Below are positions 12,479 to 32,439 of a DNA stretch of 49,484 bases, in pieces. Every line of letters starts with the position of its first letter. Position 1 is the stretch's first letter. Source of the DNA: Bacillota bacterium (GTDB lineage Bacteria > Bacillota > Desulfitobacteriia > Desulfitobacteriales > JAJXUE01); contig JAJXUE010000018.1 in the NCBI GenBank assembly GCA_021783135.1, forward strand, positions 1-49,484, in the 5' to 3' direction. A program made the translations under genes and the position numbers. The notes under the pieces are model-generated. The model did no database searches, had not been told where the DNA came from, and saw only the letters and a program-made list of their open reading frames with translations.

Positions 12479-12485
12479 ACGCTGA

Positions 12486-12522: not shown

Positions 12523-12764
12523 TTTCCCGCATGAGGTTATCTATACGTCATTTTAAAGGTTTGCCAGCAACGTCCGTGCATTAGAGGGCGACCGAGAAAA
12601 ATGTTGCTTAATGGCACTTATACCTGTAACATGTGTAAATAGGCAATATTCGTTTATATGACGAACATATGACCAACTTTTGACCTATTAAGGAACCTAT
12701 CGTCGCATAGAGCTGGTTTTCCGCTTGTGCACGAAGAGGGTGTAGCAAAAAGGAGTGTGTAGGT
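12523..12764. other. Leader region of the first chemoreceptor gene, nothing recognised
   Basis: I see no open frame with a ribosome site, no clear promoter at good spacing and no riboswitch in this stretch. The only functional site is AAAAAGGAG (12747-12755) for the gene that follows. Confidence 0.4.
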
Positions 12765-14483: not shown

Positions 14484-14599
14484 TCAAACACGCAATGTTA
14501 TTAAAAAAATGGTAGACATAGGCAAATTAAGTGAAATATTAGCAGGAATCCGGACATTTTTGGCGAAGATTATAAAAAAGTTAATTATAATTGCTGTAT

Positions 14600-14690
14600 C
14601 TGTCGACAATGGCAAACCTGCTTAAAGGTGGGGACGCAAAGCTACGAGTCTAAGGTGGACAAAAACACTATGATGGTCGGGCTATCGAAA
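14600..14690 (+). ncRNA. Cyclic di-GMP-I (GEMM-I) riboswitch aptamer
   Basis: The characteristic GEMM-I segments occur in order: GGCAAACC (14611-14618), then AAAGGTGGGGACGCAAAGC (14624-14642), then GTCTAAGG (14648-14655) and ATGGTCGGGCTATCG (14672-14686) closing the P1 helix with CGACAAT-side sequence. A terminator hairpin follows 15 bases later and the next gene is an HD-GYP c-di-GMP phosphodiesterase. Outer boundaries are approximate. The neighbouring gene supports a feedback role. Confidence 0.9.
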
Positions 14691-14704
14691 ATTTACACCA
14701 CATT

Positions 14705-14740
14705 GTCGCCACGTAAGCATTGTTTCGTGGCGACTTTTTT
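14705..14740 (+). terminator. Riboswitch expression-platform terminator
   Basis: GTCGCCACG (14705-14713) pairs perfectly with CGTGGCGAC (14726-14734), followed by six T. It lies between the c-di-GMP aptamer and the HD-GYP start codon, so it is the likely transcriptional switch. Whether ligand promotes or prevents termination cannot be read directly. Confidence 0.85.
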
Positions 14741-14767
14741 GTGCGGGAGAAAACGGGGTGTGGACAC

Positions 14768-15889: not shown

Positions 15890-15984
15890 GCCAGCTTTAC
15901 CCACTCTTGCACGAATAGGTAAAACCAAAATAAGCTCTGTATTTCTGTAAAATGATGTACCATAAAGGCAATAATGACTTAATT

Positions 15985-16010
15985 AACGGTTGTCGGCAAG
16001 AGCAACCGTT
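15985..16010 (+). terminator. Hairpin downstream of the HD-GYP gene
   Basis: AACGGTTG (15985-15992) pairs perfectly with CAACCGTT (16003-16010), followed by TTGTTGT; a moderate terminator about 95 bases after the stop codon. Confidence 0.55.
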
Positions 16011-16071
16011 TTGTTGTGCAAAGTATTGGGTGAAAAAATGACTGTTAAATTGCAGGCAAAAAGGAGGATTG

Positions 16072-16143
16072 ATGAAAAGATTGTCGAATAAAACTCAAAA
16101 TATCTTGCAAAAAAATTGTCGCCATGTGCTTTACTTATGGTGA
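16072..16143 (+). CDS. Possible 23-residue leader peptide before the second chemoreceptor
   Basis: ATG 16072 has AAGGAGG four bases upstream and reads 23 codons (starts MKRLSNKTQNILQK) to a TGA at 16141-16143. That stop is within the descending arm of a terminator hairpin (16118-16149). A translated short frame running into a terminator resembles a leader-peptide attenuator, but I see no run of regulatory codons. It could instead be the remnant of a gene start. Confidence 0.35.
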   Translation: MKRLSNKTQNILQKNCRHVLYLW

Positions 16144-16149
16144 CTTTTT
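16118..16149 (+). terminator. Terminator hairpin in the leader of the second chemoreceptor
   Basis: GTCGCCAT (16118-16125) pairs with ATGGTGAC (16137-16144), one wobble, followed by five T. The start, ATTGTCGCCA, matches that of the riboswitch terminator at 14703, but no c-di-GMP aptamer is visible upstream. Confidence 0.65.
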
Positions 16150-16202
16150 CATTGCCTTAGTGGAGAGCCGAACCGAGCCTAGTATACAAATGGAGGGTAA
16201 AT

Positions 16203-17891
16203 ATGAAAATTAGAGCTAAATTGGTCACAGCCTTTGGCATAGTTTTATTGATTTCCGCTTTACAAGGGGCGGTAGAGATCGTAGTTTCGAATAATATCAA
16301 TAATTCTGTCAAAAGCATCAGCAACAAGTGGCTGCCGTCGCTTGGGTATATAAGTGAACTGGATACCCAAACCTCAGAGCTGCGCTTAAATGAGCTTCAA
16401 CTCATAACCATGCCGGACATGCGACAACAAACGACCCAAAGTATTGCTACATTGTCTAATGAAATTAATGCGGACATGGCTAAATATGCGGCCACAATGA
16501 CCACACCGGAGGAAAAAACCAACTGGGCTACGTTTACGCGCGGCTATCAAGCGTATGTGCAAAATGATGAGACCATCTCTGAGTTAGTTGACGGAGGTAG
16601 TACTGACGCAGCCCTAATTCAATACGACTCCAGTGTGACTGCGTACAACCAATTTAAAGCTCCACTCAAGAACCTGGTTGCTTTAAATATCAACAACGGC
16701 GCTAAAGAAGCAACAATTTCGCAAACAGCCTTTGACTCTGGCCGCATAATTTCCTTCATTGCACTGGGGCTAAATATCCTGTTAGGTATGTTGCTGGCTT
16801 GGTATATAGCGGTATCACTGACCAAAACCGTCCAGCAGTTGGGTGATGCCATTGACGAAGTTGCCGAGGGTAACCTTGCTATCGACAAAGTGAAAATTAA
16901 TACTCAAGATGAAATCAGTCAAATGGCAGGTTCCTTTAATACCATGGTAGCGAATCTGCGTGCGCTAATTAAGAATGTGGCTGAAGCGGCGGAGCAAGTA
17001 GCTGCTTCCTCTCAGGAATTAACCGCAAGCTCGGAACAGCATGCCCAAGCAACTACCCAGGTCGCAACGGCGATCGAAGGTGTTGCCAGCGGGACACAAA
17101 AGCAGGCTGATGCGGTCAATGAAACTTCTGCGGCCATCGAACAAGTGTCAATCAGCATTCAACAAGTTGCGGAAAACGCCAATAGCGTAGCCGGTTTAAC
17201 CGACATCACCACCCAGGCGACACAAGTTGGCTACTCGGCAGTTAACAAGGCTGTCAGCCAGATGGACAATGTGGGCAAGAGCACGGCGCAGGTTCAAGCG
17301 GCCATTGAACAGTTGGAAACAGGCTCCAACAAAATCGGTGAAATTTCTAGCGTAATCGCCGATATTGCCAGCCAGACCAACCTTTTAGCGTTAAATGCTG
17401 CAATTGAGGCGGCAAGGGCAGGGGAACAAGGACGCGGTTTTGCGGTAGTCGCAGAAGAAGTGCGTAAATTGGCCGAGCAGTCGCAAAATGCTGCCCAGGA
17501 GATTACTCAGCTGATTGATGAAAACAAGATTGGTATTGATAACGCAGTAGCTACGATGAATACGGGTGCCAACGAAGTTAAAGTTGGCATGGAGGTGGTT
17601 AATACTGCCGGTGATTCTTTTAAAGATATCGCAGCTTCCGTAGAGCAGGTGGCGGAGCGCATCAAGGAAATTTCTGTGACTATTCAGCAGATGGCAAACG
17701 GTAGTCAACAGATTGTGGACTCGATTCATTCAATTGACATGGTGAGCAAGGAAAACTCCAGCCAATCCCAAACAGTTTCGGCTGCAACGGAAGAACAGGC
17801 AGCGTCAGTTGAAGAAATTGCCTCCGCCAGTCAGAATCTAGCTGTTTTAGCCCAAACCTTGCAGAACGCTACGGCAAAATTCCGCGTTTAA
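16203..17891 (+). CDS. Methyl-accepting chemotaxis protein
   Basis: 562-residue chemoreceptor with a membrane helix at about 7-27, a helical extracytoplasmic region to about 180, a second membrane helix at about 181-203, HAMP to about 257, and a signalling hairpin with [18 protein letters not shown]. Close relative of the receptor at 12765 in the cytoplasmic part but different in the sensor part, so it probably reads a different cue. ATG with AATGGAGGG site. A terminator-bearing leader precedes it. Confidence 0.93.
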
Positions 17892-17922
17892 CGCGTTTAA
17901 ATACGAGAGGAAAAGACAATCT

Positions 17923-19209
17923 ATGTTGACAAAAAAGCTGTTTCAGTCTAAATATCTTACGTCCTTGCACCTTAAGATCTTCCTTTTTACGATGATGCTC
18001 ATATTTTTAATGACAGCCGCTTTTCTAGTAGTTATTTTTGCTTCAGGAGTTAATGCTATCACGCGAAATTTGATCATAGAGGTTAATGTTGTGGCGGCTG
18101 TCTTGATTGCCGGTGCCGGGCGCATGTGGGCCATGGGTCTGATTCATTCGTTGACACACATAACCACAGCTTTGACGCAGATATCCAAAGGGGATTTAAG
18201 TGTAGAAGTAAAGGTGGAAAATTATGACGAATTTGGACTGCTGGAAGTTGCTGCCAGGGATATGGTGGCCGATTTAAGAAACATTACCACAGCTATCAAT
18301 CAAACCTCATCCTTTGTTGCAACCTCTGCCCGACAATTGACGTCACATGCCGCTGAAATAGCGGCTGCTTCAGAGCAAATAGCGTATACGGTACAAGATA
18401 TCAATCTTAAATCCCAGGAGCAAACGGAGCAAACCAACACTGTGACCACCGCAGTCAGAGAATTAAGCGTCGCCATCCAGCACAGTAATGAGAACGTTCA
18501 GGAAGTAAGTGAAAAAAGCAACGGTGCATTTCAATTGGCCCAAGACGGGCAAAGCTCGATGGAAAATGTAGTTACTAAGATGGATTCCATAGACCGACTC
18601 GTGTCGAACAGTGTCAACACTTTTCATGATTTAACCCAGTTAAGTCAACAAATCAGCTCGATTGTCACAGTTATTAGCCAAATAACCAGCCAAACCCATC
18701 TCTTGTCGCTGAATGCCTCGATTGAAGCGGCACGAGTGGGCGAACAGGGACGTGGCTTTGCGGTTGTTGCCAACGAGATTAAAAAGCTTTCCGAAGAAAC
18801 GTCCCGTTCCGCGAATGAAATAACACATGTCATTTTGACCATGCAAAGCTTAGTTCAACAAGTTGCTATCGCGATGGATCAAGGAGCCCAAGAAGTAAAA
18901 GAGGGCGCCAAGGTAACGGGTGAAGCGGGCGAATCATTTAAGCAGATTCTTGCAGCAATTGAAGGTGTCAATAATCGCGTGGTGGAGATCAGCTCGGTTA
19001 ACGAGCAAATAGCCGCGACCTCGGAGTCCATAATCCCAATCATGCATGCTTTAGTTGACCGCTCTAATGCCATGGGTGATGCAACTTCCACTGTTGTGGC
19101 TACTACGGAGGAACAAACCGCGGCCATGTCCGAGATTTCTGCTAATGCGGAGGAATTAGTCGGGGCGACGACCGAGTTACAACATCACGTCACTAAATTT
19201 AAACTATAG
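17923..19209 (+). CDS. Chemoreceptor without a sensor domain (two membrane helices, HAMP, MCP)
   Basis: 428 residues. Two hydrophobic helices (about 16-38 and 46-68) are separated by only a few residues, so there is almost no extracytoplasmic domain; a HAMP-like segment follows and then the methyl-accepting signalling region with [18 protein letters not shown], a less typical tip than the two upstream receptors. It may sense the membrane or internal state, or act with the preceding receptors. ATG with acgagagga site, 31 bases after the previous gene, so probably co-transcribed. The duplicated block ends inside codon 67, and the copy at 49270 is truncated. Confidence 0.9.
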
Positions 19210-19382
19210 TAAGAGGCACATAATTTACCGTATAATTACAGTCAACTTTGACTTAGTACGGAATATGATGAATCAGGAAGTGAGTTTTTTTTACAGCACG
19301 CATGTGTACGTTCTCACAATCACAATATACTGTGTTTTGTTGTTTGGGTCTATTCCGAAGCGGGAAGGGGATGATGCCCGGT

Positions 19383-19574
19383 ATGAAAAAGGACCTGAGG
19401 TGCTCGTGCAAAAAGTTGGTGTGTCAGATTGACGGCGATGATATAGTCCTAAAATGTCGTCACTGCAAAAAAATCATCTATATTCACACCAGAGGCTTAA
19501 TCAGCATGGAATATCGGGTCGAAGAGCCGCTCATAAAACTTAATAGCATCCCCAATGCATACCAAAGCCGTTAA
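19383..19574 (+). CDS. Com-like zinc-finger protein (first of three)
   Basis: Small Cys-rich protein of 63 aa beginning MKKDLRCSCKKLVCQI. Cysteines at residues 7, 9, 14, 25 and 28 (C-x-C-x4-C then CRHC) match the Com family of zinc-binding regulators, whose phage Mu member binds mRNA to activate mom translation. Two close paralogues are at 29665 and 29936. I chose ATG 19383 by alignment with them; ATG 19371 or 19374 is possible, since GGAAGGGG (19363-19370) lies closer to those. A two-hairpin element begins directly at the stop codon. Target unknown. Confidence 0.75.
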   Translation: MKKDLRCSCKKLVCQIDGDDIVLKCRHCKKIIYIHTRGLISMEYRVEEPLIKLNSIPNAYQSR

Positions 19575-19646: not shown

Positions 19647-19847
19647 ATGTTAGCAATCGGTAAAATAATGGATACTAGCGTTGCACCGATACTGGCAAGT
19701 CAAACTATCGGAGAAATTACGCCGATTATGCAGCGCAACGCTCTGCCCGGGCTGCCTGTTGTGGACAAAAACCGCAAATTGCTCGGGGTGGTGTTTAGTT
19801 ATAGTCAAGGAGCTGAGTTAGCACCAGAAACGCCTGTGGTAAAGTAA
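19647..19847 (+). pseudogene. N-terminal CBS half of a sigma-54 activator, split by a frameshift
   Basis: 66 residues starting MLAIGKIMDTSV, a CBS-type small-molecule-binding half-domain (PGLPVVDKNRKLLGVV) ending ETPVVK-stop. The next frame resumes exactly where the sequence should continue (MSRQVPAV). The join AAAGTAATGAG would read V-K-V-M-S-R with one extra G after AAAG, so a one-base deletion or sequencing error is likely. Alternatively the TAATG overlap (stop 19845-19847, start 19847) couples two separate polypeptides. The ribosome site GGGAG lies at 19629-19633. Confidence 0.65.
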
Positions 19848-21031
19848 TGAGTAGGCAGGTGCCGGCGGTAGATAAAAACTTTCCTGCTGCCAAGGCCTTA
19901 GCCTTAGATTTTGCCCTCTTGCCGGTAGTAAACGCTAAGAAGCAGGTTTTAGGCATTGTGTTGCGTTCAGAATTGATAAAATTGCTGGGTGGGCCCTTAC
20001 CCAGCACCGAAAAAAATATGGAAGTGCTGCCAAGCCAAACTGACTCTTCCGACATACCTGAGCTGCGCCTGGCCCAAGAACGTGCGATACTGCTGCGCAA
20101 GGCAGGGCTGATAGCCTATGCTCCTAAGATGCTGCGGCTGGTTGATTTATGTTTGCGCGTTGCACCGGCAGATTCGACTGTGCTGATTACAGGAGAATCC
20201 GGTGTAGGTAAGGAGCTTTTTGCGAACTTAATCCATGCCCAAAGCAACCGAGCCTTAGGGCCGTTGGTTAAAATTAATTGCGGTGCCATTCCGGAAAACT
20301 TGCTGGAATCGGAACTGTTTGGGTATGAAGCAGGAGCCTTTACCGGGGCCAATCGTCAGGGTAAGCTGGGTATGTTTGAATTGGCACATGGCGGGACTTT
20401 GTTGCTCGATGAAGTGGGTGAACTGCCGCTTCATTTGCAGGTGAAACTTTTACGGGCCATCCAGACGCAAGAGATTGTCAGGGTAGGCGGAGTCAAAACA
20501 AAAAAAGTCGATATTCGGGTAGTGGCAGCTACCAATCGTGACTTAGCCCAAATGGTGTCAACAGGAGCGTTTCGCCAGGACTTGTATTTTCGGTTAAACG
20601 TTGTACCGCTTGAGGTACCGCCGCTGCGCGAACGCCGAGAGGATATTTTGCCGTTACTGCACCATATGCAAATCAAGTTTACGCATAAATTAAAAATGGA
20701 AAAGCGTTTTGCCCCGGAGGTCTTAAAAGCCTTGCATAACTACACCTGGCCTGGAAACGTACGCGAATTGGAAAATATCGTTGAACAGCTGTTTGTGCTG
20801 ACTCCCGGTTATGAGGTTACTGCAGCAGACTTACCGCCCAAGCTGTGCCGTGAACGAGGTGGCAGTGTCAAAGTAAGTGGCATAATGCCCTTACGCCAAG
20901 CAGTGCAAGCGGTGGAAGAACAGCTCTTGACGGAAGCTCTGAGTGTATGTGGCGGAACCTACCAGGCCGCAGCAGCTTTGGGCATTGACCAGTCAACCTT
21001 TGTGCGTAAGTTAACAAAATTTAAGCGATAG
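19847..21031 (+). CDS. Sigma-54-dependent transcriptional activator (CBS half, AAA+, HTH)
   Basis: 394 residues. The first 50 or so form the second CBS half (PVVNAKKQVLGIVLRSEL). An AAA+ sigma-54 interaction domain follows: Walker A GESGVGKE (about residue 116), the sigma-54 contact loop GAFTGA (about 162), Walker B LLLDEVGE and arginine-finger region FRQDLYFRLNV. A Fis-like helix-turn-helix ends the chain (TYQAAAALGIDQSTFVRKL). It would activate sigma-54 promoters, most obviously the one at 21244 in front of hdrC. CBS domains often bind adenine nucleotides, so an energy-state signal is plausible. Confidence 0.9.
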   Translation: MSRQVPAVDKNFPAAKALALDFALLPVVNAKKQVLGIVLRSELIKLLGGPLPSTEKNMEVLPSQTDSSDIPELRLAQERAILLRKAGLIAYAPKMLRLVDLCLRVAPADSTVLITGESGVGKELFANLIHAQSNRALGPLVKINCGAIPENLLESELFGYEAGAFTGANRQGKLGMFELAHGGTLLLDEVGELPLHLQVKLLRAIQTQEIVRVGGVKTKKVDIRVVAATNRDLAQMVSTGAFRQDLYFRLNVVPLEVPPLRERREDILPLLHHMQIKFTHKLKMEKRFAPEVLKALHNYTWPGNVRELENIVEQLFVLTPGYEVTAADLPPKLCRERGGSVKVSGIMPLRQAVQAVEEQLLTEALSVCGGTYQAAAALGIDQSTFVRKLTKFKR

Positions 21032-21309: not shown

Positions 21310-21843
21310 GTGAATGATGTGTTGGGATACCTGGAGCGGGAAAGCAAACAGCCGCTAAGTCTTTGCTATCAGTGTCAAAAATGCTCCGGGGGCTGCCCTG
21401 TTAGCAAATTGACTACTGTCATGGCCCATCAAGTCGTGCGTTTGGCGCAACAAGACCAGGTAGAAGCTTTAATCGCCGCGCCACTTGTATGGTACTGCAC
21501 CGGGTGTAAAACGTGTCAAGCTCGTTGCCCGAACGGTATCGACATCTCGGCTGTGCTTGACGTGCTCAAGGCCAAAGTCTTAAGTGAGGCCAACAAGGTC
21601 ACGGACTTAGCTTCTTTTCATACCAGCTTTCTGAATTCTGTGCAACGCCACGGCCGAGTTTACGAATTAGGTATGGTAGTTGGGTACAAATGGCGTGTTA
21701 AGCGATGGCTGGAAGACAAGGAACTTGGCAGCCGCATGTTCCTGAAAGGAAAACTTGCCTTGCTGCCACACCGGATTGCCTATAGACGGCAAGTCAAGGA
21801 CCTATTCCGACTTCAAGCGCGAGGAGGTAGGGAAGATGACTGA
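21310..21843 (+). CDS. hdrC: HdrC-like iron-sulfur subunit
   Basis: 177-residue protein with two [4Fe-4S] motifs, CYQCQKCSGGCP (about residues 18-29) and CTGCKTCQARCP (about 62-73), as in the HdrC subunit that wires HdrA to HdrB. Start GTG behind GGGAGGG. It overlaps hdrB by 8 bases. In acetogens such as Moorella, HdrABC with MvhD and MetFV forms one methylene-tetrahydrofolate reductase complex, and all these genes are present here in order. Confidence 0.9.
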   Translation: MNDVLGYLERESKQPLSLCYQCQKCSGGCPVSKLTTVMAHQVVRLAQQDQVEALIAAPLVWYCTGCKTCQARCPNGIDISAVLDVLKAKVLSEANKVTDLASFHTSFLNSVQRHGRVYELGMVVGYKWRVKRWLEDKELGSRMFLKGKLALLPHRIAYRRQVKDLFRLQARGGREDD

Positions 21844-22708
21844 ACGAGTGAGCTATTATCCCGGTTGTTCCTTGCACACCGGCGCACGCGAATATGATTT
21901 GTCTTGTCGTCGGGTGCTGCAGGCACTAGGTGTATATTGCGCGGAAGTTAACGACTGGAATTGCTGCGGCGCAAGCTCTGCTCACAGTGCAGGTCATGCT
22001 TTAAGCCTAAGCTTGCCGTTGCGCAATTTGCTGTTGTGCCAGGGGGAGAGTGAGCGGTTAGTGGTGCCGTGTGCTGCTTGCTATAACCTGTTACGTACCA
22101 CGACGGAAATTTTGGCGGTTGGAACGCCGGAAGCCAGAAGCGTGCAGGAACAAGTCGAGCAAATTATGGGCAAAGCATACAGCCGAAAAGTCAAGGTAGA
22201 ACATCCTTTGGACTTATTGACACAGCCAGCGCTACTGGCACGCCTCAAAGCACAACTTTGCCAATCACTGCAGGGGTTAAAGCTGGCGCCGTATTATGGT
22301 TGTCTCTTGGTTCGTCCGGAAAATATTGCCTTTGACAACCCGGAACAGCCCCAAAAAATGGATCTGTTGTTGCAGGAATTAGGCGCAGATGTGGTGCGTT
22401 GGTCCTACAAAACTGAATGTTGCGGCGGTGGGCTGGGTATAACTCAGGGCAAGGCCACAACACCTCTAGTGGATAGACTGGTGTATGAGGCCAAACGCGC
22501 CGGCGCAGAAGCTTTAGTAACTGCCTGCCCGCTTTGCCAAGCTAATTTGGAAGGACGGCAAAGTGAGAGTATGCCGGTATTCTACTTCACAGAATTAGTC
22601 GGTTTGGCCTTGGGGCTAGCGGATACCGAAGCCTGGTTTCAAGCACACTTAATTGATGTTTTTCCCCTCTTAAACCAAGTGAAAGGAGGGAGTTTACGTG
22701 TCAGATAA
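21836..22708 (+). CDS. hdrB: HdrB-like CCG-domain subunit
   Basis: 290 residues with two cysteine-rich CCG domains: YYPGCSLH, WNCCGA and PCAACYNLL in the first, YYGCLLVRP, ECCGGGLG and TACPLCQAN in the second, the ligands of the noncubane [4Fe-4S] clusters in HdrB. In methanogens HdrB reduces CoM-S-S-CoB; here, without that substrate, it would relay electrons toward MetVF. ATG 21836 has GAGGTAGGGA upstream; it overlaps hdrC and hdrA. Confidence 0.9.
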   Translation: MTERVSYYPGCSLHTGAREYDLSCRRVLQALGVYCAEVNDWNCCGASSAHSAGHALSLSLPLRNLLLCQGESERLVVPCAACYNLLRTTTEILAVGTPEARSVQEQVEQIMGKAYSRKVKVEHPLDLLTQPALLARLKAQLCQSLQGLKLAPYYGCLLVRPENIAFDNPEQPQKMDLLLQELGADVVRWSYKTECCGGGLGITQGKATTPLVDRLVYEAKRAGAEALVTACPLCQANLEGRQSESMPVFYFTELVGLALGLADTEAWFQAHLIDVFPLLNQVKGGSLRVR

Positions 22709-25700
22709 ACCTGTCGGAGCTGTTTTAGTACTGGGTGGCGGAATTGCCGGTATGCAGTCGGCCCTGGACTTGGCAGAAGGCGGATTTCTCGTACACTTAG
22801 TGACAGATGAGCCTTCTATAGGTGGCAAAATGGCCAAACTGGATAAAACTTTCCCGACTAATGAATGTGCAATGTGTCTGCTCGGGCCTAAAATGTCGGA
22901 CACCGCGAGTCATCCGAATATCAGACTGCACACCTTGAGCAAATTAGCTCAGGTGCAAGGTGAGGCCGGAAACTTTAGCGTCACCGTCCGACATGCGGCC
23001 CGCTTTGTCAACATGGAGGAGTGTACGGCGTGTGGTGAGTGTGAGGCTGTGTGCCCGGTAACGGTAGCGGATGAATTCAACCAAGCCATGAGTGAGCGTA
23101 AGGCGATTTATAAATTGTTTCCGCAGGCCGTGCCCAATAAATACTTGATTGACAAGCGCGGTGAGCCACCTTGCCGTGGTACGTGTCCGGCAGGCTGCAA
23201 TGTGCAAGGGTATGTAGCCTTACTGGCCGAGGGACGTTTCCCTGAAGCCTTAGAAGTTACCCGGCGCAAAATGCCGTTTGCGGGTATCTGCGGTCGTATT
23301 TGTCATCACCCCTGCGAAACAGCTTGTAATCGCAAAGATTTAGACCAGCCCATCGCTATTGCTCAGCTTAAAAGGGCAGCGGCAGACTTTGGCTGGGCTG
23401 AGGCCGAGCAAAAGCAGCTTCTAACCCAAGTACCAAGCGCACCGCAGCTGGACGCCAACGGGCAAGTGCGCAAAGTCGGTATTATTGGCGCCGGGCCGGG
23501 TGGACTGGCTGCAGCGAAAGACTTGGCTGAGCTCGGTTACCAAGTTACCGTGATCGATGCTTTAGCGCAAGCGGGCGGTATGCTTAGTGCCTGCATCCCG
23601 CACTATCGTTTACCTCAGCCTGTAGTGCAACGCGAAATCGCTGCGATATTGGCTTTGGGCATTGAGTTTCGCCCCAATACCACAGTGGGAGTCGATGTTA
23701 GCCTCGCAGAGCTGCAGCAAGAGTTTCCAGCGTTGCTCCTGGCGTTAGGCTGTCAAAAGGGACGCTCTTTGGCGCTTGAGGGTAATGATTTGACTGGAGT
23801 ATTTTCCGGCATAGAGTTCCTGCGTGCCGTAGCCCTGGGGCAATACGTGGCTGTCGGACGGAAAGTTGTCATAGTCGGCGGTGGGAATGTTGCGATTGAC
23901 ACAGCCCGAACCGCCTTGCGCCTAGGCGCAAACGAAGTGCACATCTACTACCGCCGGGACAGAGCCGCAATGCCGGCGCATGCCTGGGAAGTGGCGGAGG
24001 CTGAAGCGGAAGGTGTTGTGCTGCACACCGGTTGGGCGCCTTGCAAACTGGTCGGACAACAGGGTAACTTAAACGGCATCCATTTCCAACGCAGCTCGGC
24101 GGAGGGCCGCGGGAGCTTAAACCTTGATACCACGCAGAATTTGACAGTAGCAGCAGACAGCGTAATTCTGGCCATAGGGCAGGATTCAGACTTAAGCTGC
24201 TTAAACGGCAGCGGCATTGCCACCCAACACGGCAAAATTACGGTTGATGCCCTAACTTATGCCACTGCGGTTGCAGGCATCTTCGCCTGTGGTGATGTGG
24301 TGAGTGGCCCAGCCTCAGTAGTCGAGGCAGTGGGTGCGGCCCATGCCGCAGCAGAATCAATCCATCGTTATCTGCACGGACTAGATTTGGCAGCGGGCAG
24401 GGATACCGCCAAATCACCCTTGGTGGATGCACCGCCTAAAAGTACGCGAATTAAGGTACCGCGTCAAGTGCAGAAGTTAATGGAACCTTCAGTGCGGGCG
24501 CAAAGTTTTGCTGAAGTGTACTCCGGTTATAGCCGGGAAGAGGCTATAGCTGAGGCCCGGCGTTGCTTTAACTGCGGTACCTGTTCTGAGTGTTTGCAGT
24601 GTGTAACCGCGTGCAAAAAAGGAGCCATCAACCATGCTGCATTGCCTACCGAGGAACAACTGCAAGTAGGCGCCATCATTTTAGCACCTGGGTATGAAGT
24701 GCAAGCAGGTGAACTGCGCGGTGAGTATGGCTATGGCATTTATCCAAATGTAATGACCTCGCTGGAGTTTGAGCGTTTACTCAGTTCGACCGGACCTACA
24801 GCAAGTCATGTGCTGCGGCCATCGGATGGCAAAGTACCGCGCAAGATAGCCTTTATCCAGTGCGTTGGTTCGCGGACGTGCAGCAAAGGGAATGCATACT
24901 GCTCCTCAATCTGCTGTATGTACGCCACGAAGGAAGCCCTGATTGCCCGGGAACACGATGCGCAAATTGAACCGACAATCTTTTACCTGGACTTACGCTC
25001 CTATGGCAAGAACTTTGATAAGTATGTTAAAGCGGCACGGGAAGGCGGGGTGCGTTATATCCGGACCATGATTTCCAGTGTGCGGGAAGACCCGGTCAGC
25101 GGTAATCTGCGACTCAAATATGCGCAAGGGGAGGCTTTGCGGGAAGAGGAATTCGACCTGGTCGTGCTGGCAGTGGGGGTTAAACCACCACGAGATGCAG
25201 CGGACTTGGCCAAAATTACCAATATTGAACTGAACGAATACGGTTTTGCCGCTACCAATCCTTTAAACCCGGTTCTCACCTCACAACCAGGCATCTTTGC
25301 GGCCGGAGCTTTTCAAGGACCACGTGATATTCCGGAAACTGTGATTAACGCCAGTGCTGCGGCGGCCGCAGCGGCGACTCAGCTGGCAGCGGGGCGAAAT
25401 CAGCTTATTACTCCGAAAATTTATCCGCCGGAACGCGATGTCCGGGGCGAACCGGCACGAGTAGGTGTGTTTATCTGCCGCTGCGGCATAAATATTGCTT
25501 CCATTGTCGATGTACCCGAAACCCTGGCTTACGTACAAACTTTGCCTGGGGTGGTGCATGCGGAAGAATTTCTCTATACCTGCTCCCAGGATACAATCAA
25601 GCACATCCAGGGGGTAATTGAGGCTTCCCGGCTGAACCGAGTAGTGGTTGCTTCCTGTACCATCCGCACGCATCAGCCTTTATTCCGAGCAGCATTGCGG

Positions 25701-27248
25701 GAAGCCGGGTTAAATCAATTCCTGTTTGAAATGGCCAATATCCGTGACCAGTGTTCCTGGGTGCATCGTTCCGAACCGGCACTTGCCACCCAAAAGGCCC
25801 AAGATTTAATCCGTATGGCTGTAGCCAAGGTCAAGCTCCATGTGCCCTTGCAACTCACACCAATTCCGGTGCGGCCTGCTGCACTCGTGTTGGGCGGCGG
25901 CATTGCCGGCCTGACGGCCAGCCTGCAGTTGGCGCAGCAAGGCTTTAAGGCCTACTTGGTGGAACGGGAACCGGTTTTAGGCGGCGGCATGCGCACGCTT
26001 TCCTGCACTGAAGACGGCCGGGACGCCCAGGCTTACCTGGATAACGTGCTTAATACAGTTCACGCGCACCCACTGATTGAAGTGTTTACTGCCGGTGAAC
26101 TAGTGGACTTTACCGGTCACCAGGGGCATTTCACGAGCACCGTCAAGACTCCCAACGGTGTGCGCAAGTTAGAGCACGGTGTAGTGCTTGTAGCCACAGG
26201 TGGCCAGCCGACAGAAGCTAACCCGCGCTATGGCCGGGGCCGAGACAGGCGGATTATCAGCCTGACTGAATTGGAAGCTAAGCTGGCTGCGGTAGCGCGA
26301 GAGCAGCAAGGTGAGCAGCACACCATTGCAGGTGAGCAGCACGCCATTGCAGGTGAGCAGCACGTCACGGCAGGTGAGCAGCTCGTCACGGCAGGTGAGC
26401 AGCACGCCACTGCAGGCGAGGTTCTAGGGCCCTGGCAGGAGGCAGTGATCGTACTGTGCGCGAGTGCGGGTTCAGATTTGCCTTATTGTAGCAGAACTTG
26501 CTGTACCCAGGCGATCAGCAATGCCATACGGCTCAAACAGCATAATCCCGCCGGTAGGGTGTTTGTACTCTATCGCGACATTCGCACCTATGCCTTTTGG
26601 GAACGTTACTATCGTTTAGCACGGGAAATGGGAATAATCTTCCTCCGTTACGACGGGGAAAACTTACCGCAACCTCAAGTGGGCAGGAACTTGTCCCTTA
26701 CCGTGCCTGATTTAGATGCCGGAATAGAGTGGAAGCTTAAGCCGGATATCATAGCCTTAGCCCAAGGTTTTGGCCCAGCCACAGGCGCGCAGGAGCTAGG
26801 GATGATGTTGAAAGTACCGCTCAACGAAGATGGATTTTTTATGGAGACGCACGCTAAATTGGGACCCATGGATTTTCCGAGCTCCGGGCTGTTTCTCTGT
26901 GGCGGTGCACACGCCCCCAAATTTGTCAGTGAAGCAATCTCTCAGGCGCAAGGCGCGGTAGCCAGGGCGGCAACCATTCTGGCCAAATCACACTTGATGG
27001 TAGGAGGAGTAGTCGCTGCAGTAACCCCGGAAAAATGTGCGGCCTGTTTAACCTGTGTGCGAGTTTGCCCGTACAGTGTGCCAAAGATAGGCCCGGATAT
27101 GGTGGCGACCATAGACGCAGTGCAGTGCCATGGCTGCGGTACGTGTGTGGGTGAATGCCCGGCAAAGGCGATTGAACTGCAACATTATACCGATGCCCAA
27201 ATGCTTGCCAAAATCAGCGCTGTCAAGGAGGTGGACCAGGATGTCTAA
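22698..27248 (+). CDS. hdrA: Giant double HdrA with inserted GltD-like NAD(P)H/FAD module
   Basis: 1516 residues. Order: HdrA FAD start (GGGIAGMQSALDLAEGG, with CAMCLLGPKM), ferredoxin motif CTACGECEAVCP (about 108), a GltD-like unit (CRGTCPAGC near 159, FAD GAGPGG near 260, NAD(P)H GGGNVAIDTA near 390), ferredoxin-like CFNCGTCSECLQC (622), the rest of HdrA (CRCGIN near 927), a second HdrA FAD domain (GGGIAGLTAS near 1063), five 7-residue GEQHxxA repeats (1205-1239) and two [4Fe-4S] motifs (1447-1485). HdrA is the flavin subunit of bifurcating Hdr complexes; the GltD unit would take NAD(P)H electrons. It overlaps its neighbours by 8-11 bases. Confidence 0.9.
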   Translation: MSDKPVGAVLVLGGGIAGMQSALDLAEGGFLVHLVTDEPSIGGKMAKLDKTFPTNECAMCLLGPKMSDTASHPNIRLHTLSKLAQVQGEAGNFSVTVRHAARFVNMEECTACGECEAVCPVTVADEFNQAMSERKAIYKLFPQAVPNKYLIDKRGEPPCRGTCPAGCNVQGYVALLAEGRFPEALEVTRRKMPFAGICGRICHHPCETACNRKDLDQPIAIAQLKRAAADFGWAEAEQKQLLTQVPSAPQLDANGQVRKVGIIGAGPGGLAAAKDLAELGYQVTVIDALAQAGGMLSACIPHYRLPQPVVQREIAAILALGIEFRPNTTVGVDVSLAELQQEFPALLLALGCQKGRSLALEGNDLTGVFSGIEFLRAVALGQYVAVGRKVVIVGGGNVAIDTARTALRLGANEVHIYYRRDRAAMPAHAWEVAEAEAEGVVLHTGWAPCKLVGQQGNLNGIHFQRSSAEGRGSLNLDTTQNLTVAADSVILAIGQDSDLSCLNGSGIATQHGKITVDALTYATAVAGIFACGDVVSGPASVVEAVGAAHAAAESIHRYLHGLDLAAGRDTAKSPLVDAPPKSTRIKVPRQVQKLMEPSVRAQSFAEVYSGYSREEAIAEARRCFNCGTCSECLQCVTACKKGAINHAALPTEEQLQVGAIILAPGYEVQAGELRGEYGYGIYPNVMTSLEFERLLSSTGPTASHVLRPSDGKVPRKIAFIQCVGSRTCSKGNAYCSSICCMYATKEALIAREHDAQIEPTIFYLDLRSYGKNFDKYVKAAREGGVRYIRTMISSVREDPVSGNLRLKYAQGEALREEEFDLVVLAVGVKPPRDAADLAKITNIELNEYGFAATNPLNPVLTSQPGIFAAGAFQGPRDIPETVINASAAAAAAATQLAAGRNQLITPKIYPPERDVRGEPARVGVFICRCGINIASIVDVPETLAYVQTLPGVVHAEEFLYTCSQDTIKHIQGVIEASRLNRVVVASCTIRTHQPLFRAALREAGLNQFLFEMANIRDQCSWVHRSEPALATQKAQDLIRMAVAKVKLHVPLQLTPIPVRPAALVLGGGIAGLTASLQLAQQGFKAYLVEREPVLGGGMRTLSCTEDGRDAQAYLDNVLNTVHAHPLIEVFTAGELVDFTGHQGHFTSTVKTPNGVRKLEHGVVLVATGGQPTEANPRYGRGRDRRIISLTELEAKLAAVAREQQGEQHTIAGEQHAIAGEQHVTAGEQLVTAGEQHATAGEVLGPWQEAVIVLCASAGSDLPYCSRTCCTQAISNAIRLKQHNPAGRVFVLYRDIRTYAFWERYYRLAREMGIIFLRYDGENLPQPQVGRNLSLTVPDLDAGIEWKLKPDIIALAQGFGPATGAQELGMMLKVPLNEDGFFMETHAKLGPMDFPSSGLFLCGGAHAPKFVSEAISQAQGAVARAATILAKSHLMVGGVVAAVTPEKCAACLTCVRVCPYSVPKIGPDMVATIDAVQCHGCGTCVGECPAKAIELQHYTDAQMLAKISAVKEVDQDV
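26310..26414 (+). repeat. Five tandem 21-bp repeats inside hdrA
   Basis: Five in-frame copies of GGTGAGCAGCAC plus nine variable bases encode GEQHTIA, GEQHAIA, GEQHVTA, GEQLVTA and GEQHATA; a sixth begins as GGCGAG. The repeat sits between beta-strands of the second FAD domain, in a probable surface loop. Each unit is seven codons, so copy-number change keeps the frame. Confidence 0.95.
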
Positions 27249-27687
27249 TCGTGATTTTGCACCCAAAATAGTTGCCTTTTGCTGCTACTACTGTGCCTAC
27301 TCTGCAGCTGATTTAGCCGGCTCCCTGCGCTTACAGTATCCGCCCACAGTGCGGTTGATTGAACAGCCGTGTTCAGGCAAAATCGACATAAGGCTGTTGT
27401 TACAGGCCTTTGAAGCCGGAGCGGACGGGGTGTATGTGGCTGGATGCCTGGAAGGAGACTGTCATTTTCTCCAAGGCAATATCCGGGCTAAGAAGCGGGT
27501 TAATGCCGCCAAAAAAATCCTCGACAAGATTGGGGTCGGCGGGGAACGTTTAGAGATGTTTAATTTGTCCGGCTCTATGGGACCTCGCTTTGCCGCAATT
27601 GCCACCGAAATGACTGAGCGCATTTTGCGGCTTGGCCCGAGCCCACTCAGTACGGCCGATAAGGGAGAGGAGGGGAAGGCAGAATGA
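27241..27687 (+). CDS. mvhD: MvhD-like [2Fe-2S] electron-transfer subunit
   Basis: 148 residues. The MvhD/FlpD signature cysteines are seen in VAFCCYYCAYSAAD, EQPCSGKIDI and VAGCLEGDCHF. In methanogens MvhD links hydrogenase to HdrA; in acetogens it is part of the MetFV-HdrABC complex without a hydrogenase, which matches the absence of mvhA/mvhG here. ATG at 27241 overlaps hdrA by 8 bases and the stop overlaps metV (ATGA). Confidence 0.92.
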   Translation: MSNRDFAPKIVAFCCYYCAYSAADLAGSLRLQYPPTVRLIEQPCSGKIDIRLLLQAFEAGADGVYVAGCLEGDCHFLQGNIRAKKRVNAAKKILDKIGVGGERLEMFNLSGSMGPRFAAIATEMTERILRLGPSPLSTADKGEEGKAE

Positions 27688-28355
27688 TCGTCGCAGCAGC
27701 AAAACCCTGGGAAGAGATTATGGCTTCGTTACACGGGATGCATAAAGTACTGGTCGTAGGGTGTGGGGGCTGTGTCGCGGTTTGTCTGGCAGGTGGCGAA
27801 AAAGAAGCCGGCATTATGGCTAGTACGCTGCGCATGCAACGCAAGCTCCAAGGCGAACCCGTCGAAACCGAAGAGATAACCCTAACCCGGCAGTGTGACC
27901 CAGAATATGTACGGGAACTGGGCAAGAAGCTGGAAGGGGTCGATGGTATTCTTTCTCTCGCCTGTGGCGTTGGGGTCCAGGTTATTGCCGAACATTACCC
28001 CAATATCTGGGTTGCTCCGGCTTTAAACACCAAGTTTGCCGGTGCCACCTTAGAGCATGGCAGCTGGGAAGAACGCTGTGGCTTATGTGGTGACTGCGTG
28101 CTGGGCCAAACCGGCGGTATTTGCCCGATTATCCGCTGTGCCAAAAGCCTGCTCAACGGACCATGCGGCGGCTCACAAGACGGTAAATGTGAGGTCAAGC
28201 CTAACGAGTGCGCGTGGAACCTGATATACGAACGGATGGGCCGGTTAGGCAGGCTAAACCAGTTATTGGAAGTAGCGGAAGCCAAGGATTGGTCGCAGGG
28301 CCGAGACGGCGGGCCGCGCCGGGTAGTCAGAGAGGATGTGAAGCTGGATGACTGA
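27684..28355 (+). CDS. metV: MetV, zinc/iron-sulfur partner of methylene-THF reductase
   Basis: 223 residues of the methylenetetrahydrofolate reductase C-terminal (MetV) family. Cysteines occur in VVGCGGCVAVC, LACGVGVQ and the C-terminal cluster region CGLCGDCVLGQTGGICP with PCGGS. MetV partners MetF in acetogens and carries an iron-sulfur cluster that feeds the flavin of MetF. The start overlaps mvhD (ATGA) and the end overlaps metF by 8 bases, so stoichiometric coupled translation is likely. Confidence 0.92.
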   Translation: MIVAAAKPWEEIMASLHGMHKVLVVGCGGCVAVCLAGGEKEAGIMASTLRMQRKLQGEPVETEEITLTRQCDPEYVRELGKKLEGVDGILSLACGVGVQVIAEHYPNIWVAPALNTKFAGATLEHGSWEERCGLCGDCVLGQTGGICPIIRCAKSLLNGPCGGSQDGKCEVKPNECAWNLIYERMGRLGRLNQLLEVAEAKDWSQGRDGGPRRVVREDVKLDD

Positions 28356-29265
28356 GCCAAGCAGCAAACTACAAAGCTTGTTAGACTCGGGGCAGTTCGT
28401 GGTTACGTGCGAGATTGGACCGCCGAAAAACGCATCAGGTACAGGGATTACCCAGCATGCCGCTCAGCTTAAGGCTTATGCCGCTGCGATGAATTTAACT
28501 GACAACCAGACTGCAATCGTGCGACTTTCCAGCATCGCTGCAGGCGTACACGTCTTGGCCGGCGGAGGAGAACCAATCATCCAGATGACCTGCCGTGATC
28601 GTAATCGGATAGCGCTGCAAAGTGACTTGCTGGGCGCGTACAGTCTGGGTCTGCGCAATCTGCTCTGTCTGTCCGGCGACCATCAGGCTTTCGGCAATCA
28701 TCCGGCTGCCAAAAACGTCTTTGACCTGGATTCCATCCAGCTAATCAAAACAGTTAAAGATATGCGCGACAGCAAGGTGTTTCATTGCGGGGAAAAAATT
28801 AAACAGGATGAGCCTCAGTTCTATATCGGGGCAGTAGCTAATCCTTTTGCTGACCCGTTCGAATATCGGGTGCATCGGTTGGAGAAAAAAATTCGGGCGG
28901 GAGCACAGTTCATTCAAACCCAATGTATTTTTGACATGCAGCGCTTTGAAACCTTCATGGACTTAGCACGTAAGCGCGGTCTGCCTGAGCGCACTCACAT
29001 TCTGGCCGGCGTAATGCCGATTAAGTCAGCCAAGGTCGCTAAGTATATGCAAAAAAACGTTTCCGGCATGTTGGTGCCGCAGGCAGTTATCGAACGCCTG
29101 GAGCAGGCGGAAGATCAGGCTCAGGAAGGCGTGAAAATCTGTATCGAACAAATCCGGCACCTCAAGACTATACCGGGAATCCATGGCGTGCATATTATGG
29201 CAGTGGCTTGGGAAGAAATTGTGCCGAGTATCGTTACAGGGGCCGGGCTTATGCCCAGGCTTTAA
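28348..29265 (+). CDS. metF: 5,10-methylenetetrahydrofolate reductase
   Basis: 305 residues of the MTHFR TIM-barrel family: reduces methylene-THF to methyl-THF with a bound flavin. Seen: FVVTCEIGPPKNASG at the start, the NLLCLSGDHQAFG segment and AQFIQTQCIFD. Together with MetV and the Hdr/MvhD genes upstream it completes the methyl branch step of the Wood-Ljungdahl pathway, as in Moorella. It could also run oxidatively. ATG overlaps metV by 8 bases; last gene of the sigma-54 operon, with a small Cys-rich gene 16 bases later. Confidence 0.94.
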   Translation: MTEPSSKLQSLLDSGQFVVTCEIGPPKNASGTGITQHAAQLKAYAAAMNLTDNQTAIVRLSSIAAGVHVLAGGGEPIIQMTCRDRNRIALQSDLLGAYSLGLRNLLCLSGDHQAFGNHPAAKNVFDLDSIQLIKTVKDMRDSKVFHCGEKIKQDEPQFYIGAVANPFADPFEYRVHRLEKKIRAGAQFIQTQCIFDMQRFETFMDLARKRGLPERTHILAGVMPIKSAKVAKYMQKNVSGMLVPQAVIERLEQAEDQAQEGVKICIEQIRHLKTIPGIHGVHIMAVAWEEIVPSIVTGAGLMPRL

Positions 29266-29440: not shown

Positions 29441-29664
29441 AGGCAAAAACTTCCTGAACTATTCGGTAATCGGGCGCATAAGCTATACCAAACAGAGCAA
29501 GAAACAGTAAAACGCAAGTGCAGAAAAGCACAAGCGTGCACTGTAAGCCCCAATAAACTGTGCCAGAAAGACTTAGAGTCGTAAGGCCAGCGGTGAATGT
29601 CACTGCTGGCCTTTTATCTTTCCCGCTGTTCCTAAAAACCAAGGTTGGAGAGGAGTGGAGCCTT
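29441..29664. other. Gap holding RNA element E2 before the second Com-like gene
   Basis: GACTTAGAGTC (29570-29580) and the hairpin AAGGCCAGCGGTG/CACTGCTGGCCTT (29583-29595 and 29600-29612) with T tract lie in the second half; the hairpin is a strong terminator. The first half has only a GTGCA-containing small inverted repeat near 29519-29541. The ribosome site AGGAG of the next gene is at 29651-29655. Confidence 0.6.
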
Positions 29665-29844
29665 ATGAGGCAAGACCTAAGGTGCAGCTGCAAAAAACTG
29701 GTGTGTCAAATCGAAGGAGAGGACATCATCATCAAGTGCCGCCATTGTAAAAAAATGATATACATTCACACCCGCGGACTCATCAGCATGGAGTTTAGAA
29801 CGATGGAACCCCTGCAGCAATTGAATCAGTCTAGTAATTTATAG
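29665..29844 (+). CDS. Com-like zinc-finger protein (second)
   Basis: 59 residues, MRQDLRCSCKKLVCQI at the start, nearly the same as the protein at 19383: cysteines C-x-C-x4-C and CRHC, then YIHTRGLISMEF. ATG 29665 has AGAGGAGTGGAG upstream. It is bracketed by RNA elements E2 (upstream) and E3 (13 bases after the stop). The Com family includes an RNA-binding translational activator in phage Mu, so a role acting on these hairpins is possible but unproven. Confidence 0.75.
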   Translation: MRQDLRCSCKKLVCQIEGEDIIIKCRHCKKMIYIHTRGLISMEFRTMEPLQQLNQSSNL

Positions 29845-29856: not shown

Positions 29857-29897
29857 GACTTTTAAGTCGTCAGGCCAGCGCATTTACGCTGGCCTTT
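29857..29897 (+). other. Two-hairpin RNA element E3
   Basis: GACTTTTAAGTC (29857-29868) followed by AGGCCAGCG/CGCTGGCCT (29872-29880 and 29887-29895) and T-rich sequence. Same layout as E1 and E2, between the second and third Com-like genes. Confidence 0.6.
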
Positions 29898-30376: not shown

Positions 30377-30505
30377 ATGCTTAAGCAAGGGATCCGTACA
30401 GGTTTGCTGCAAGTATGCCGTGGCGTAATGGCAGGAGTGTTGGTCTTTGAAATCGGTTCCTTCTTGGCTGTTTTGGGTCTGATCGGCTACAAAGTAATGT
30501 TTTAA
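30377..30505 (+). CDS. Small membrane peptide, 42 aa (second)
   Basis: ATG 30377 with GGAGAGGGTGAGG (30360-30372) upstream; the peptide starts MLKQGIRTGLLQVCRGVMAG, a basic start then one hydrophobic helix. Same length and layout as the peptide at 30197 and similar to the cytochrome's N-terminus. The stop overlaps a TAATG that opens the cytochrome frame. Function unknown. Confidence 0.6.
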   Translation: MLKQGIRTGLLQVCRGVMAGVLVFEIGSFLAVLGLIGYKVMF

Positions 30506-30603
30506 TGAAATTGTACCATTCGGGTCTGGAGGCTCCGAGTCCAAAGACCGGTTTCCCCATCTGGGAAAAAATCCGGTTAGGGAGAAAGGAGTGGACCCTG
30601 AGG

Positions 30604-31533
30604 ATGGAACACAAACGAGTGAGGCAAGGTTTTGTGTACGGCCTGGCAGGGTTATTTACCGCAACCTTTGTCGCATTGAATTTGGCCGGCATTATTACCT
30701 TGTTGGTTTTCTTTTTTTCCCCGTTCGCCTTTGCCGGTGGTGGCATAGCGCAAAACGAGCAAGCCAACGCCAAGTGCCTTAGTTGTCACAGCCAACCGGG
30801 CTTCAACGTGGTCAAAGGAAGTGCCACCATTGACCTCTACGTAGATAAAACGCAGTATCAAGCATCAATCCACGGTACGCGTGCCTGCACCAGTTGTCAT
30901 AGCGATTTGGGCGGAGTCCCTCATACCAACCCAGTGTATGGTCAAGAACTGGCCCAACAAGTAAATCAACAATGTGTAGCTTGCCACACGGACGAGGGTA
31001 AAGCATATTTAAGCAGCATCCACGGTGAACAGCTTATAGCCGGCAAAGAGGGGGCCGCGTGCAGTGACTGTCACGGTAAACACAATATTCAGAAGAGCAG
31101 CGACCCTGCAGCAACTACCTACCGGCTAACTATCTCTAATATCTGTATGAATTGCCACCAAGGCAAGGTAGCCCAAAGTTACAACTACAGCTTCCACGGC
31201 ACAGCAATCAAGCTGGGTTATACCAAGTCAGCTACTTGCGCCGACTGTCACGGCACTCACGCCATTTTACCCCCAGAAAACCCCAATTCGAGTGTCAGTA
31301 AACAAAACGAACCACAAACCTGTGCCCAGTGCCATCTGCAGGCACAGCCCAATTTCGCACAAGGCAACGAGCACGCAGTGCCTCAGGATCAACAAAATGA
31401 CTTTCCGCTGTGGATTGTTTGGAAGATATTTTTAGGTTTAATTGTTTTCGACATCCTCAAGGATGGCAGTATCGCTGTCTTCGAACTTATCCGCAGGTTA
31501 ATCAATACCAGACGCAACACCCCTAAGTCCTAA
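30604..31533 (+). CDS. Heptahaem c-type cytochrome, membrane-anchored
   Basis: 309 residues from ATG 30604. A basic N-terminus and hydrophobic segment (FVALNLAGIITLLVFFF) form a signal anchor ending SPFAFAGGG. Seven CxxCH haem sites follow: CLSCH, CTSCH, CVACH, CSDCH, CMNCH, CADCH, CAQCH. A C-terminal membrane helix (about 268-284) precedes a basic tail. Similar to NapC/NrfH-linked or multihaem quinol-coupled electron carriers. AGAAAGGAG (30582-30590) is 13 bases upstream; an alternative ATG at 30505 would add 33 residues. Needs ResB/ResC for haem attachment. The cytochrome b next door is its likely partner. Confidence 0.88.
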   Translation: MEHKRVRQGFVYGLAGLFTATFVALNLAGIITLLVFFFSPFAFAGGGIAQNEQANAKCLSCHSQPGFNVVKGSATIDLYVDKTQYQASIHGTRACTSCHSDLGGVPHTNPVYGQELAQQVNQQCVACHTDEGKAYLSSIHGEQLIAGKEGAACSDCHGKHNIQKSSDPAATTYRLTISNICMNCHQGKVAQSYNYSFHGTAIKLGYTKSATCADCHGTHAILPPENPNSSVSKQNEPQTCAQCHLQAQPNFAQGNEHAVPQDQQNDFPLWIVWKIFLGLIVFDILKDGSIAVFELIRRLINTRRNTPKS

Positions 31534-31590
31534 AAATGCCTTTACAGGCGAGAACAAGAGGTGCTTAACCAGAGAGGGGGATTAAACCTT

Positions 31591-32439
31591 ATGGCACAGC
31601 AAACAACAACAAAGACCGCTCCTATGCCGAATTTCATTGAGCGCTTCGATAAACACCAGCGCTACCAGCACATATTGTTAATCGTGAGCATATTTTTCCT
31701 CTGCTTGACCGGTTTTCCGATTAAGTACGCAGATGCGGCTTGGGCTAGAGCTATAGTAGCCATGTTTCAGGGCTTTGACCATATGTTTACAGTACACCTG
31801 GTGTCGGCTGTGTGTATGATCTTAAGTGGTATCTACCACATTGTCTGGATTGTGCTGCACTTTAAAAATCACGGACCTAAATGGGCAATGCTCCCCTCTT
31901 TTAAGGATTTTAAAGATGCCTGGCACCACGGTTTATACCTTATCGGTGTCCGCAAGGCAAGACCACAGTATGACCGCTACACTTATCTGGAAAAATTCGA
32001 ATACTTTGCCGTGATTTACGGGATTCTGCTGATGGGTCTGAGTGGTTTTGTCCTCTGGTTCCCGGACGTAGCAGCCTGGATCATGCCGCGTTGGGTTATC
32101 GATATGTTTCGTATCGCACATAGCAACGAAGCACTGGTTTGTCTGTTTGCCTTAATCATTGGCCATTTTTTCTGGGTACACTTTAACCCTGATGCCTTTC
32201 CAACTAGTTCGGTTTGGTACAACGGCAAGATTTCCAAACAACATCTGCAAGAGGAGCATCCCTTAGAGTATGCTAGATTGGCCGAATTGTATGGTGAAAC
32301 AGGGGATAATGGGGATAATCTACACGCCGAGCAGGTTAAGCCACCTAAAGGACGCTTGTTTATGCTTGTAGAGTTACTCATCTATGTTGCCTTTGTGATA
32401 GTCCTTTTGGCCACATTTATTCCCGCGTTGTTAGCTTAG
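31591..32439 (+). CDS. Cytochrome b-type membrane subunit
   Basis: 282 residues with about four to five membrane helices and paired histidines: RYQHILLIVSI, MFTVHLVSAV, GIYHIVWIVLHF, RIAHSNEALVC and IIGHFFWVHFNPDAFP. This resembles the di-haem cytochrome b of formate dehydrogenase/hydrogenase type, which passes electrons between a periplasmic-side partner and menaquinone. ATG 31591 with GAGAGGGGG site is preferred to GTG 31561. It follows the heptahaem cytochrome by 57 bases, so the pair probably forms a quinone-linked electron module. Confidence 0.85.
   Translation: MAQQTTTKTAPMPNFIERFDKHQRYQHILLIVSIFFLCLTGFPIKYADAAWARAIVAMFQGFDHMFTVHLVSAVCMILSGIYHIVWIVLHFKNHGPKWAMLPSFKDFKDAWHHGLYLIGVRKARPQYDRYTYLEKFEYFAVIYGILLMGLSGFVLWFPDVAAWIMPRWVIDMFRIAHSNEALVCLFALIIGHFFWVHFNPDAFPTSSVWYNGKISKQHLQEEHPLEYARLAELYGETGDNGDNLHAEQVKPPKGRLFMLVELLIYVAFVIVLLATFIPALLA

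Follow-up and report, generated by a model that had tools for sequence, protein, structure and literature searches.

A predicted NADPH-type pocket in the GltD insert of HdrA from a probable methylenetetrahydrofolate reductase operon of a Bacillota bacterium

We analysed a stretch of 49,484 nucleotides (the window), contig JAJXUE010000018.1 of assembly GCA_021783135.1, from a Bacillota bacterium of the order Desulfitobacteriales. It contains an open reading frame (ORF) at 22698-27248 for a 1516-residue HdrA, exactly where the original prediction had placed it. This HdrA is likely a subunit of a Moorella-type (type IV) methylenetetrahydrofolate (methylene-THF) reductase, HdrCBA-MvhD-MetVF, which takes part in CO2 fixation by bacteria. 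Its layout, two HdrA modules with a GltD-like unit inserted into the first, is known, not new, and is standard for the Moorella type. New here, on a small scale, are a predicted NADPH pocket in the GltD insert, a one-flavin reading derived from a lysine-to-serine replacement in module 2, evidence for exchange of the GltD unit as a cassette among HdrAs, and a tandem-repeat loop predicted to be largely disordered.

Results

Domain layout of the window HdrA

Pfam and NCBIfam profiles identify three FAD/Rossmann units and several iron-sulfur domains in the protein. The GltD-type match covers residues 153-560, and the HdrA matches are split on either side of it. Alignment with the HdrA structure 5odc_A (PDB) yields four pieces, query 9-154, 629-843, 919-1092 and 1360-1507, of which the first two are consecutive in 5odc_A (146-291 and 293-510). 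Since these two pieces flank the GltD unit, the unit lies inside the inserted ferredoxin of module 1; it is inserted rather than appended, as had been proposed. The HdrA-family features, a CX(n)CX3CC motif and a TrxR-like FAD fold, are present in both modules. AlphaFold2 models were built from the window HdrA and its relatives in two parts, residues 1-905 and 906-1516, with a mean predicted local distance difference test score (pLDDT) of 89.3 and 84.4, respectively. The models match HdrA structures (8rwn_A with TMt 0.95 over 901 alignment columns; 5odc_A with TMq 0.80), and the GltD part matches the Nfn/Stn structures NfnABC, StnC and NfnL. Profiles, structural alignment and models together bear out the two HdrA modules and three FAD/Rossmann modules of the original prediction, and the three-part layout at these coordinates is confirmed as real, far beyond chance.

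Counted by motif, the window HdrA holds eight [4Fe-4S] sets, so that the earlier figure of at least four was true but low. The inserted ferredoxin, split by GltD, contributes two (C109/112/115/119 and C623-C639), the GltD N-domain another two (C159/163/167 and C198/202/206/210) and the C-terminal ferredoxin a further pair (C1447-1457 and C1477-1487). The HdrA-type motifs are CX12CX3CC in module 1 (C722/735/739/740) and CX9CX3CC in module 2 (C1254/1264/1268/1269). An additional four-cysteine set, C927/929/962/987, is found in the HdrA N-terminal domain of module 2.

The NAD(P) pocket

We aligned 114 distinct HdrA relatives, the window included. Duplicates were removed (L009, identical to L090; L127-L130; L149; L150), and L089 and L091-L094 were omitted as the same genes as L109-L113. 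At residues 418-420, the pocket triplet reads YRR in 65 sequences, CLE in 44, CPE in two, and CIE, YSR and LDR in one each; 67 rows are R-type and 47 are E-type. The window HdrA carries YRR. Its six nearest relatives (L090, L108, L109, L110, L111 and L133) carry CLE, as do the rows that are probably Moorella HdrA. One contig, L081, has two GltD-inserted HdrA genes close by, one of E-type and the other with LDR at the pocket.

Among the GltD-like DsrL enzymes, the assayed YRR enzyme DsrL-2 is active with NADP(H) only, and two non-YRR enzymes prefer or require NAD(H) (PMC7596348). In NfnB, residues Y310, R311 and R312 hold the 2'-phosphate (PMC7596348). StnC binds NADPH (PMC10482914), and its GltD unit reads YRR in the alignment. 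Given that YRR goes together with NADP(H) in DsrL-2, NfnB and StnC, NADPH use is predicted for the window HdrA, and we consider it probable that the enzyme prefers NADPH over NADH. The entry of NAD(P)H through the GltD unit, which the original prediction had suggested, is supported. The GxGxxG/GxGxxA rule does not discriminate among these sequences: GxGxxA occurs in 113 of the 114 relatives, in R- and E-types alike. We found no description of an NADPH-type HdrA-GltD in the literature surveyed, judged mostly by titles and the openings of abstracts.

History of the GltD insert

The tree set comprises 60 rows, obtained by thinning the 114 at 80% core identity within each of the two types. On a tree of the HdrA core, GltD excluded, the R/E label requires 15 changes, 12 of them forced by starred branches, compared with a shuffled mean of 19.9. 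On a GltD tree calculated without the motif, it requires 4 changes versus 20 when shuffled. Both trees are quick ones and the change counts are rough. With 15 changes on one tree and 4 on the other, the insert has a history of its own, apparently one of exchange among HdrA backbones.

A more careful GltD tree was calculated from 31 hand-picked rows of the 60, with the motif columns removed. Here, the window GltD joins its CLE sisters at 100/99, inside a clade of 15 rows that consists of 14 E-types and the window. A clade of all R-types is rejected (p-AU 7.4e-6). The H-x-W context is found in 38 of the 47 E-types and, among the 67 R-types, in the window only. A swapped-in R-type GltD is ruled out as the source of the window YRR, as the GltD unit stays with its CLE sisters within the E clade. 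We take the window pocket to be of NADH type originally and converted in place, because its GltD unit is nested among CLE sequences. L068 has a YRR pocket as well; its GltD falls among E-types when the whole GltD is used for the tree, though seemingly not on a tree of the NAD subdomain, a possible case of subdomain exchange.

The same nesting allows a different view, in which NADH, or either nucleotide, is still accepted by the pocket and YRR arose by neutral drift. The residues around YRR are the scaffold of the NADH-type clade, and the window branch is long with many residues altered. Three adjacent residues, however, have become the canonical triplet: a sister has the codons TAC TGC CTG GAA GAC TAT and the window TAC TAC CGC CGG GAC AGA, with TGC CTG GAA of the sisters corresponding to TAC CGC CGG. 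Drift seldom lands there, and we regard this explanation as rather unlikely.

Flavin sites and the loop of module 2

The published sign of a bifurcation-type HdrA flavin is a pair of glutamate and lysine (PMC9430772 section 5). In module 1, this pair (E692 and K745) is kept in 114 of 114 aligned relatives. At the lysine position of module 2, 98 of the 114 read lysine, seven serine and nine another residue; the seven with serine are the window and six sisters of the same order. The window keeps E1193 and has S1274 in place of the lysine, so that the pair is missing from one of the two TrxR-like modules, both of which carry it in the published Moorella protein. By the glutamate/lysine rule, module 1 is the sole candidate for a bifurcating flavin in the window HdrA.

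A loop of module 2 harbours an in-frame tandem repeat. The repeat-bearing stretch is 28 residues longer than in the sisters (81 versus 53 between E1193 and position 1274), the longest among them, and part of it has a pLDDT below 50 in the AlphaFold2 model. The repeat loop is probably inert.

Distribution and known counterparts

The original prediction called the layout unusual unless a domain-architecture survey found it to be standard, and standard is what the survey finds. Exactly this layout is published for M. thermoacetica HdrA of the type IV methylene-THF reductase (PMC9430772 section 5; Kremp et al. 2022), and a GltD insertion into HdrA is described in archaea as type III HdrA (PMC12054007). 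In a genome_contigs search, at least 579 stretches encode a relative; the whole HdrA-GltD layout is colinear in one reading frame in all of the best 80 loci, a count biased by that choice (L056 is cut by a contig end). In a sample of the phylum, 43 of 298 genomes have a match at E <= 1e-250 and 38 of 298, by our own count, have the long form, defined as a match from residue 57 or lower to 1181 or higher in a frame of at least 1,366 codons. Within the order of the window, 8 of 73 genomes contain the long form. A metF match at E <= 1e-90 is found in six genomes of this order, and these are exactly the ones with an HdrA that shares 68-100% identity with that of the window. GltD-less two-module HdrAs of the same order (frames of about 955-1043 codons) seem not to belong to a methylene-THF reductase; MvhD is near, with no metVF within the fetched flanks. 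In L117, the GltD-inserted HdrA comes to its end with module 1 (906 codons), and a second frame of 624 codons encodes module 2, a natural split of the fusion.

The published M. thermoacetica residues E696, K750, E1204 and K1246 are present exactly in the HdrA of G091, a genome with the same operon gene order and an HdrA 58% identical to that of the window. They also fit L152, L153, L154, L156 and L157 exactly when counted from the start methionine at position 3, and from these residue numbers the L152-type rows are the probable Moorella HdrA. The window shares with M. thermoacetica HdrA the domain order, the GltD unit interrupting the additional ferredoxin/TrxR module, the second TrxR-like module without inserted ferredoxin, and the gene order (PMC9430772). 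The eight [4Fe-4S] clusters predicted there, next to three FAD, equal the number in the window (PMC9430772). In contrast to the Moorella-type protein (L152, its identity assigned as above) with CLE and K1246, the window has YRR, S1274 and the longer repeat-bearing loop, at 58% identity.

Sporomusa ovata HdrA belongs to the same operon type and, like the window, has the glutamate/lysine pair in only one of two TrxR-like modules, but it is a 101 kDa protein without GltD and without the additional ferredoxin (PMC9430772). Since S. ovata has one pair only, pairs in both modules do not define type IV HdrA. Archaeal type III HdrA from methane-metabolising organisms also carries GltD within the inserted ferredoxin domain (PMC12054007). 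These nine sequences are, however, most like type I HdrA and have GxGxxG where the window has GxGxxA, and two insertion events within archaea are inferred for them (PMC12054007). NfnB, StnC and DsrL share the GltD fold, two clusters and FAD with the window insert, and NfnB, StnC and DsrL-2 share YRR; unlike the insert, they are separate or otherwise fused proteins outside HdrA (PMC7596348, PMC10482914).

Operon and gene neighbourhood

The genes hdrC-hdrB-hdrA-mvhD-metV-metF follow each other with overlapping starts and stops and form one operon (Table 1). HdrB, HdrC, MvhD and MetVF, expected as partners of HdrA in the original prediction, are all encoded in it. A sigma-54 activator gene is located upstream (19847-21031). 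Elsewhere in the genome, we find a canonical HdrA with HdrB, HdrC and MvhD (contig C35), an HdrA-like gene adjoining a CODH/ACS methyltransferase gene (contig C51) and Nfn-type subunits (contig C56).

Table 1. Features of the operon and of hdrA (positions in the window)
Feature	Position	Strand	Description
hdrC	21310..21843	+	Pfam, NCBIfam
hdrB	21836..22708	+	Pfam, NCBIfam; listed ORF 21755-22708, internal ATG 21836 overlaps hdrC stop
hdrA	22698..27248	+	one ORF, 1516 codons/aa; GTG start, TAA stop; overlap with hdrB at its start and with mvhD at its end
HdrA module 1, N half	22698..23153	+	residues 1-152; FAD motif GGGIAG and first [4Fe-4S] motif of inserted ferredoxin
GltD-like insert	23154..24383	+	residues about 153-562; Fer4_20 two-cluster domain, FAD Rossmann GAGPGG, NAD(P) Rossmann GGGNVA
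NAD(P) pocket triplet YRR	23949..23957	+	residues 418-420; predicted NADPH type; closest relatives CLE
HdrA module 1, C half	24552..25412	+	residues 619-905; holds E692/K745, the CX12CX3CC motif and the second half of the split ferredoxin
HdrA N-terminal (MvhD-like) domain of module 2	25446..25871	+	residues 917-1058
HdrA module 2 TrxR-like FAD domain	25872..26987	+	residues 1059-1430; no inserted ferredoxin; E1193 present, S1274 in place of the lysine
In-frame 21-bp tandem repeat	26309..26420	+	5.3 copies (GEQHxxA), module 2 loop, predicted largely disordered
C-terminal ferredoxin domain	27006..27182	+	residues 1437-1495; two [4Fe-4S] motifs
mvhD	27241..27687	+	Pfam, NCBIfam; listed ORF 27130-27687, internal ATG 27241 overlaps hdrA stop
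metV	27684..28355	+	PF12225
metF	28348..29265	+	PF02219, NCBIfam
Terminator-like hairpin past metF	29583..29613	+	14-pair stem, T-rich tail; consensus match only
Second terminator-like hairpin	29872-29895		past metF; consensus match only

Two alike small CxxC-CxxC proteins, zinc-ribbon-like and without Pfam or NCBIfam match, flank the operon (19302-19574 and 29560-29844). Starting 1.2 kb past metF, a multihaem c-type cytochrome gene (30505-31533; seven CxxCH by eye, hydrophobic ends) is followed by a cytochrome b561-like gene (31561-32439). A tblastn search with both against the related loci collected at that stage gave no match for either. With no match in those loci and terminator-like hairpins between them and metF, the two genes were left out of the system; as a speculation, they are a candidate membrane partner, though the terminators intervene. 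An exact direct repeat of 8,306 bp lies at 9817-18122 and 41164-49469 (0 mismatches, offset 31,347 bp), its second copy ending 15 bases from the contig end; it reflects either a duplication of recent date or an artefact of the assembly. At 748-9844, ResB and CcsA-like cytochrome c assembly genes precede a tetrapyrrole biosynthesis cluster.

Discussion

In the proposed mechanism, NAD(P)H, here presumably NADPH, would donate a hydride to the FAD of GltD. From there, electrons would travel one at a time through the two GltD clusters and those of the split ferredoxin domain to the module 1 FAD at E692/K745, to be joined there by the electrons of a second partner, donor or acceptor, on the side of MvhD, probably a quinone. 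Their exit would be through module 2 and the C-terminal ferredoxin to HdrC/HdrB and on to MetV-MetF and methylene-THF. This electron order and the confurcation with quinone are inferred. M. thermoacetica HdrA oxidises NADH (PMC8760232), interactions of HdrA, MvhD and MetVF are shown in S. ovata, and confurcation of NADH and menaquinol has been proposed (PMC13040438). The counterpart of the split ferredoxin domain serves soluble ferredoxin in methanogen HdrA (PMC9430772, PMC12054007); as GltD occupies this site, the low-potential partner would be NADPH instead of ferredoxin. This role would suit NADPH better than NADH, since it is NADPH that reduces more strongly in cells (PMC7596348).

Taken together, the GltD insert may be an exchangeable cofactor cassette that sets NADH versus NADPH for the type IV methylene-THF reductase. 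The NADH-type cassette of the window would have been converted in place alongside the loss of the module 2 lysine, making the enzyme a confurcating methylene-THF reductase that runs on NADPH and has one coupling flavin. We hold this combined reading tentatively, at somewhat less than even confidence. Several points weigh against the proposed role and mechanism of the window HdrA. One of the two published sites of bifurcation type is lost through S1274. The NAD-specific triplets in DsrL are varied, and the one assayed CLE enzyme that we found is, by inference, Moorella HdrA. The type of pocket does not divide cleanly with metVF, as metV/metF lie within 3 kb in 21 of 54 R-type and 15 of 27 E-type ORFs. 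Methylene-THF-dependent NADH oxidation is not catalysed by the complex enriched from M. thermoacetica (PMC8760232). S. ovata crude extract has no such oxidation of NADH or NADPH, and coupling is therefore unproven even in the type cases. The self-contained bifurcating core of the original prediction stands in part: module 1 has a bifurcation-type flavin site, but with the module 2 lysine lost the claim is too strong.

Alternatively, HdrA could be a non-bifurcating relay that hands electrons from NAD(P)H directly on to HdrBC-MetVF, with the module flavins as simple wires. Methylene-THF reduction by NAD(P)H is downhill, from -320 to -200 mV (PMC8760232), and module 2 is without its lysine. The invariant glutamate/lysine pair of module 1 argues against a relay, as does the enriched Moorella complex, which does not reduce methylene-THF with NADH alone, just as a strictly coupled enzyme would behave (PMC8760232). 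We judge the relay unlikely. The split ferredoxin domain keeps all its cluster cysteines, and soluble ferredoxin could also remain the low-potential partner there; GltD would then be accessory. This is very unlikely given that the insert is located in that very domain, that the same insertion in archaea is modelled as possibly blocking ferredoxin access (PMC12054007), and that ferredoxin could not be confirmed for the Moorella complex (PMC8760232). An assembly chimera, with three genes fused or the pocket mis-assembled, might be suspected from the exact repeat on the same contig, but it is virtually excluded: the colinear fusion recurs in each of the 80 genome_contigs loci and in relatives whose genomes are separate, and hdrA lies outside both repeat copies.

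The pocket bears on how type IV methylene-THF reductases save energy. In these enzymes, NADH is oxidised by HdrA, and methylene-THF is not reduced with NADH (PMC8760232). If some members use NADPH, as we predict for the window enzyme, assays and energy balances based on NADH only would miss activity. A switch from NADH to NADPH would also alter the driving force, given the stronger reducing power of NADPH in cells. The window enzyme and its CLE sisters form a natural pair for the nucleotide question, and the lysine/serine difference in module 2 separates the roles of the two TrxR-like flavins.

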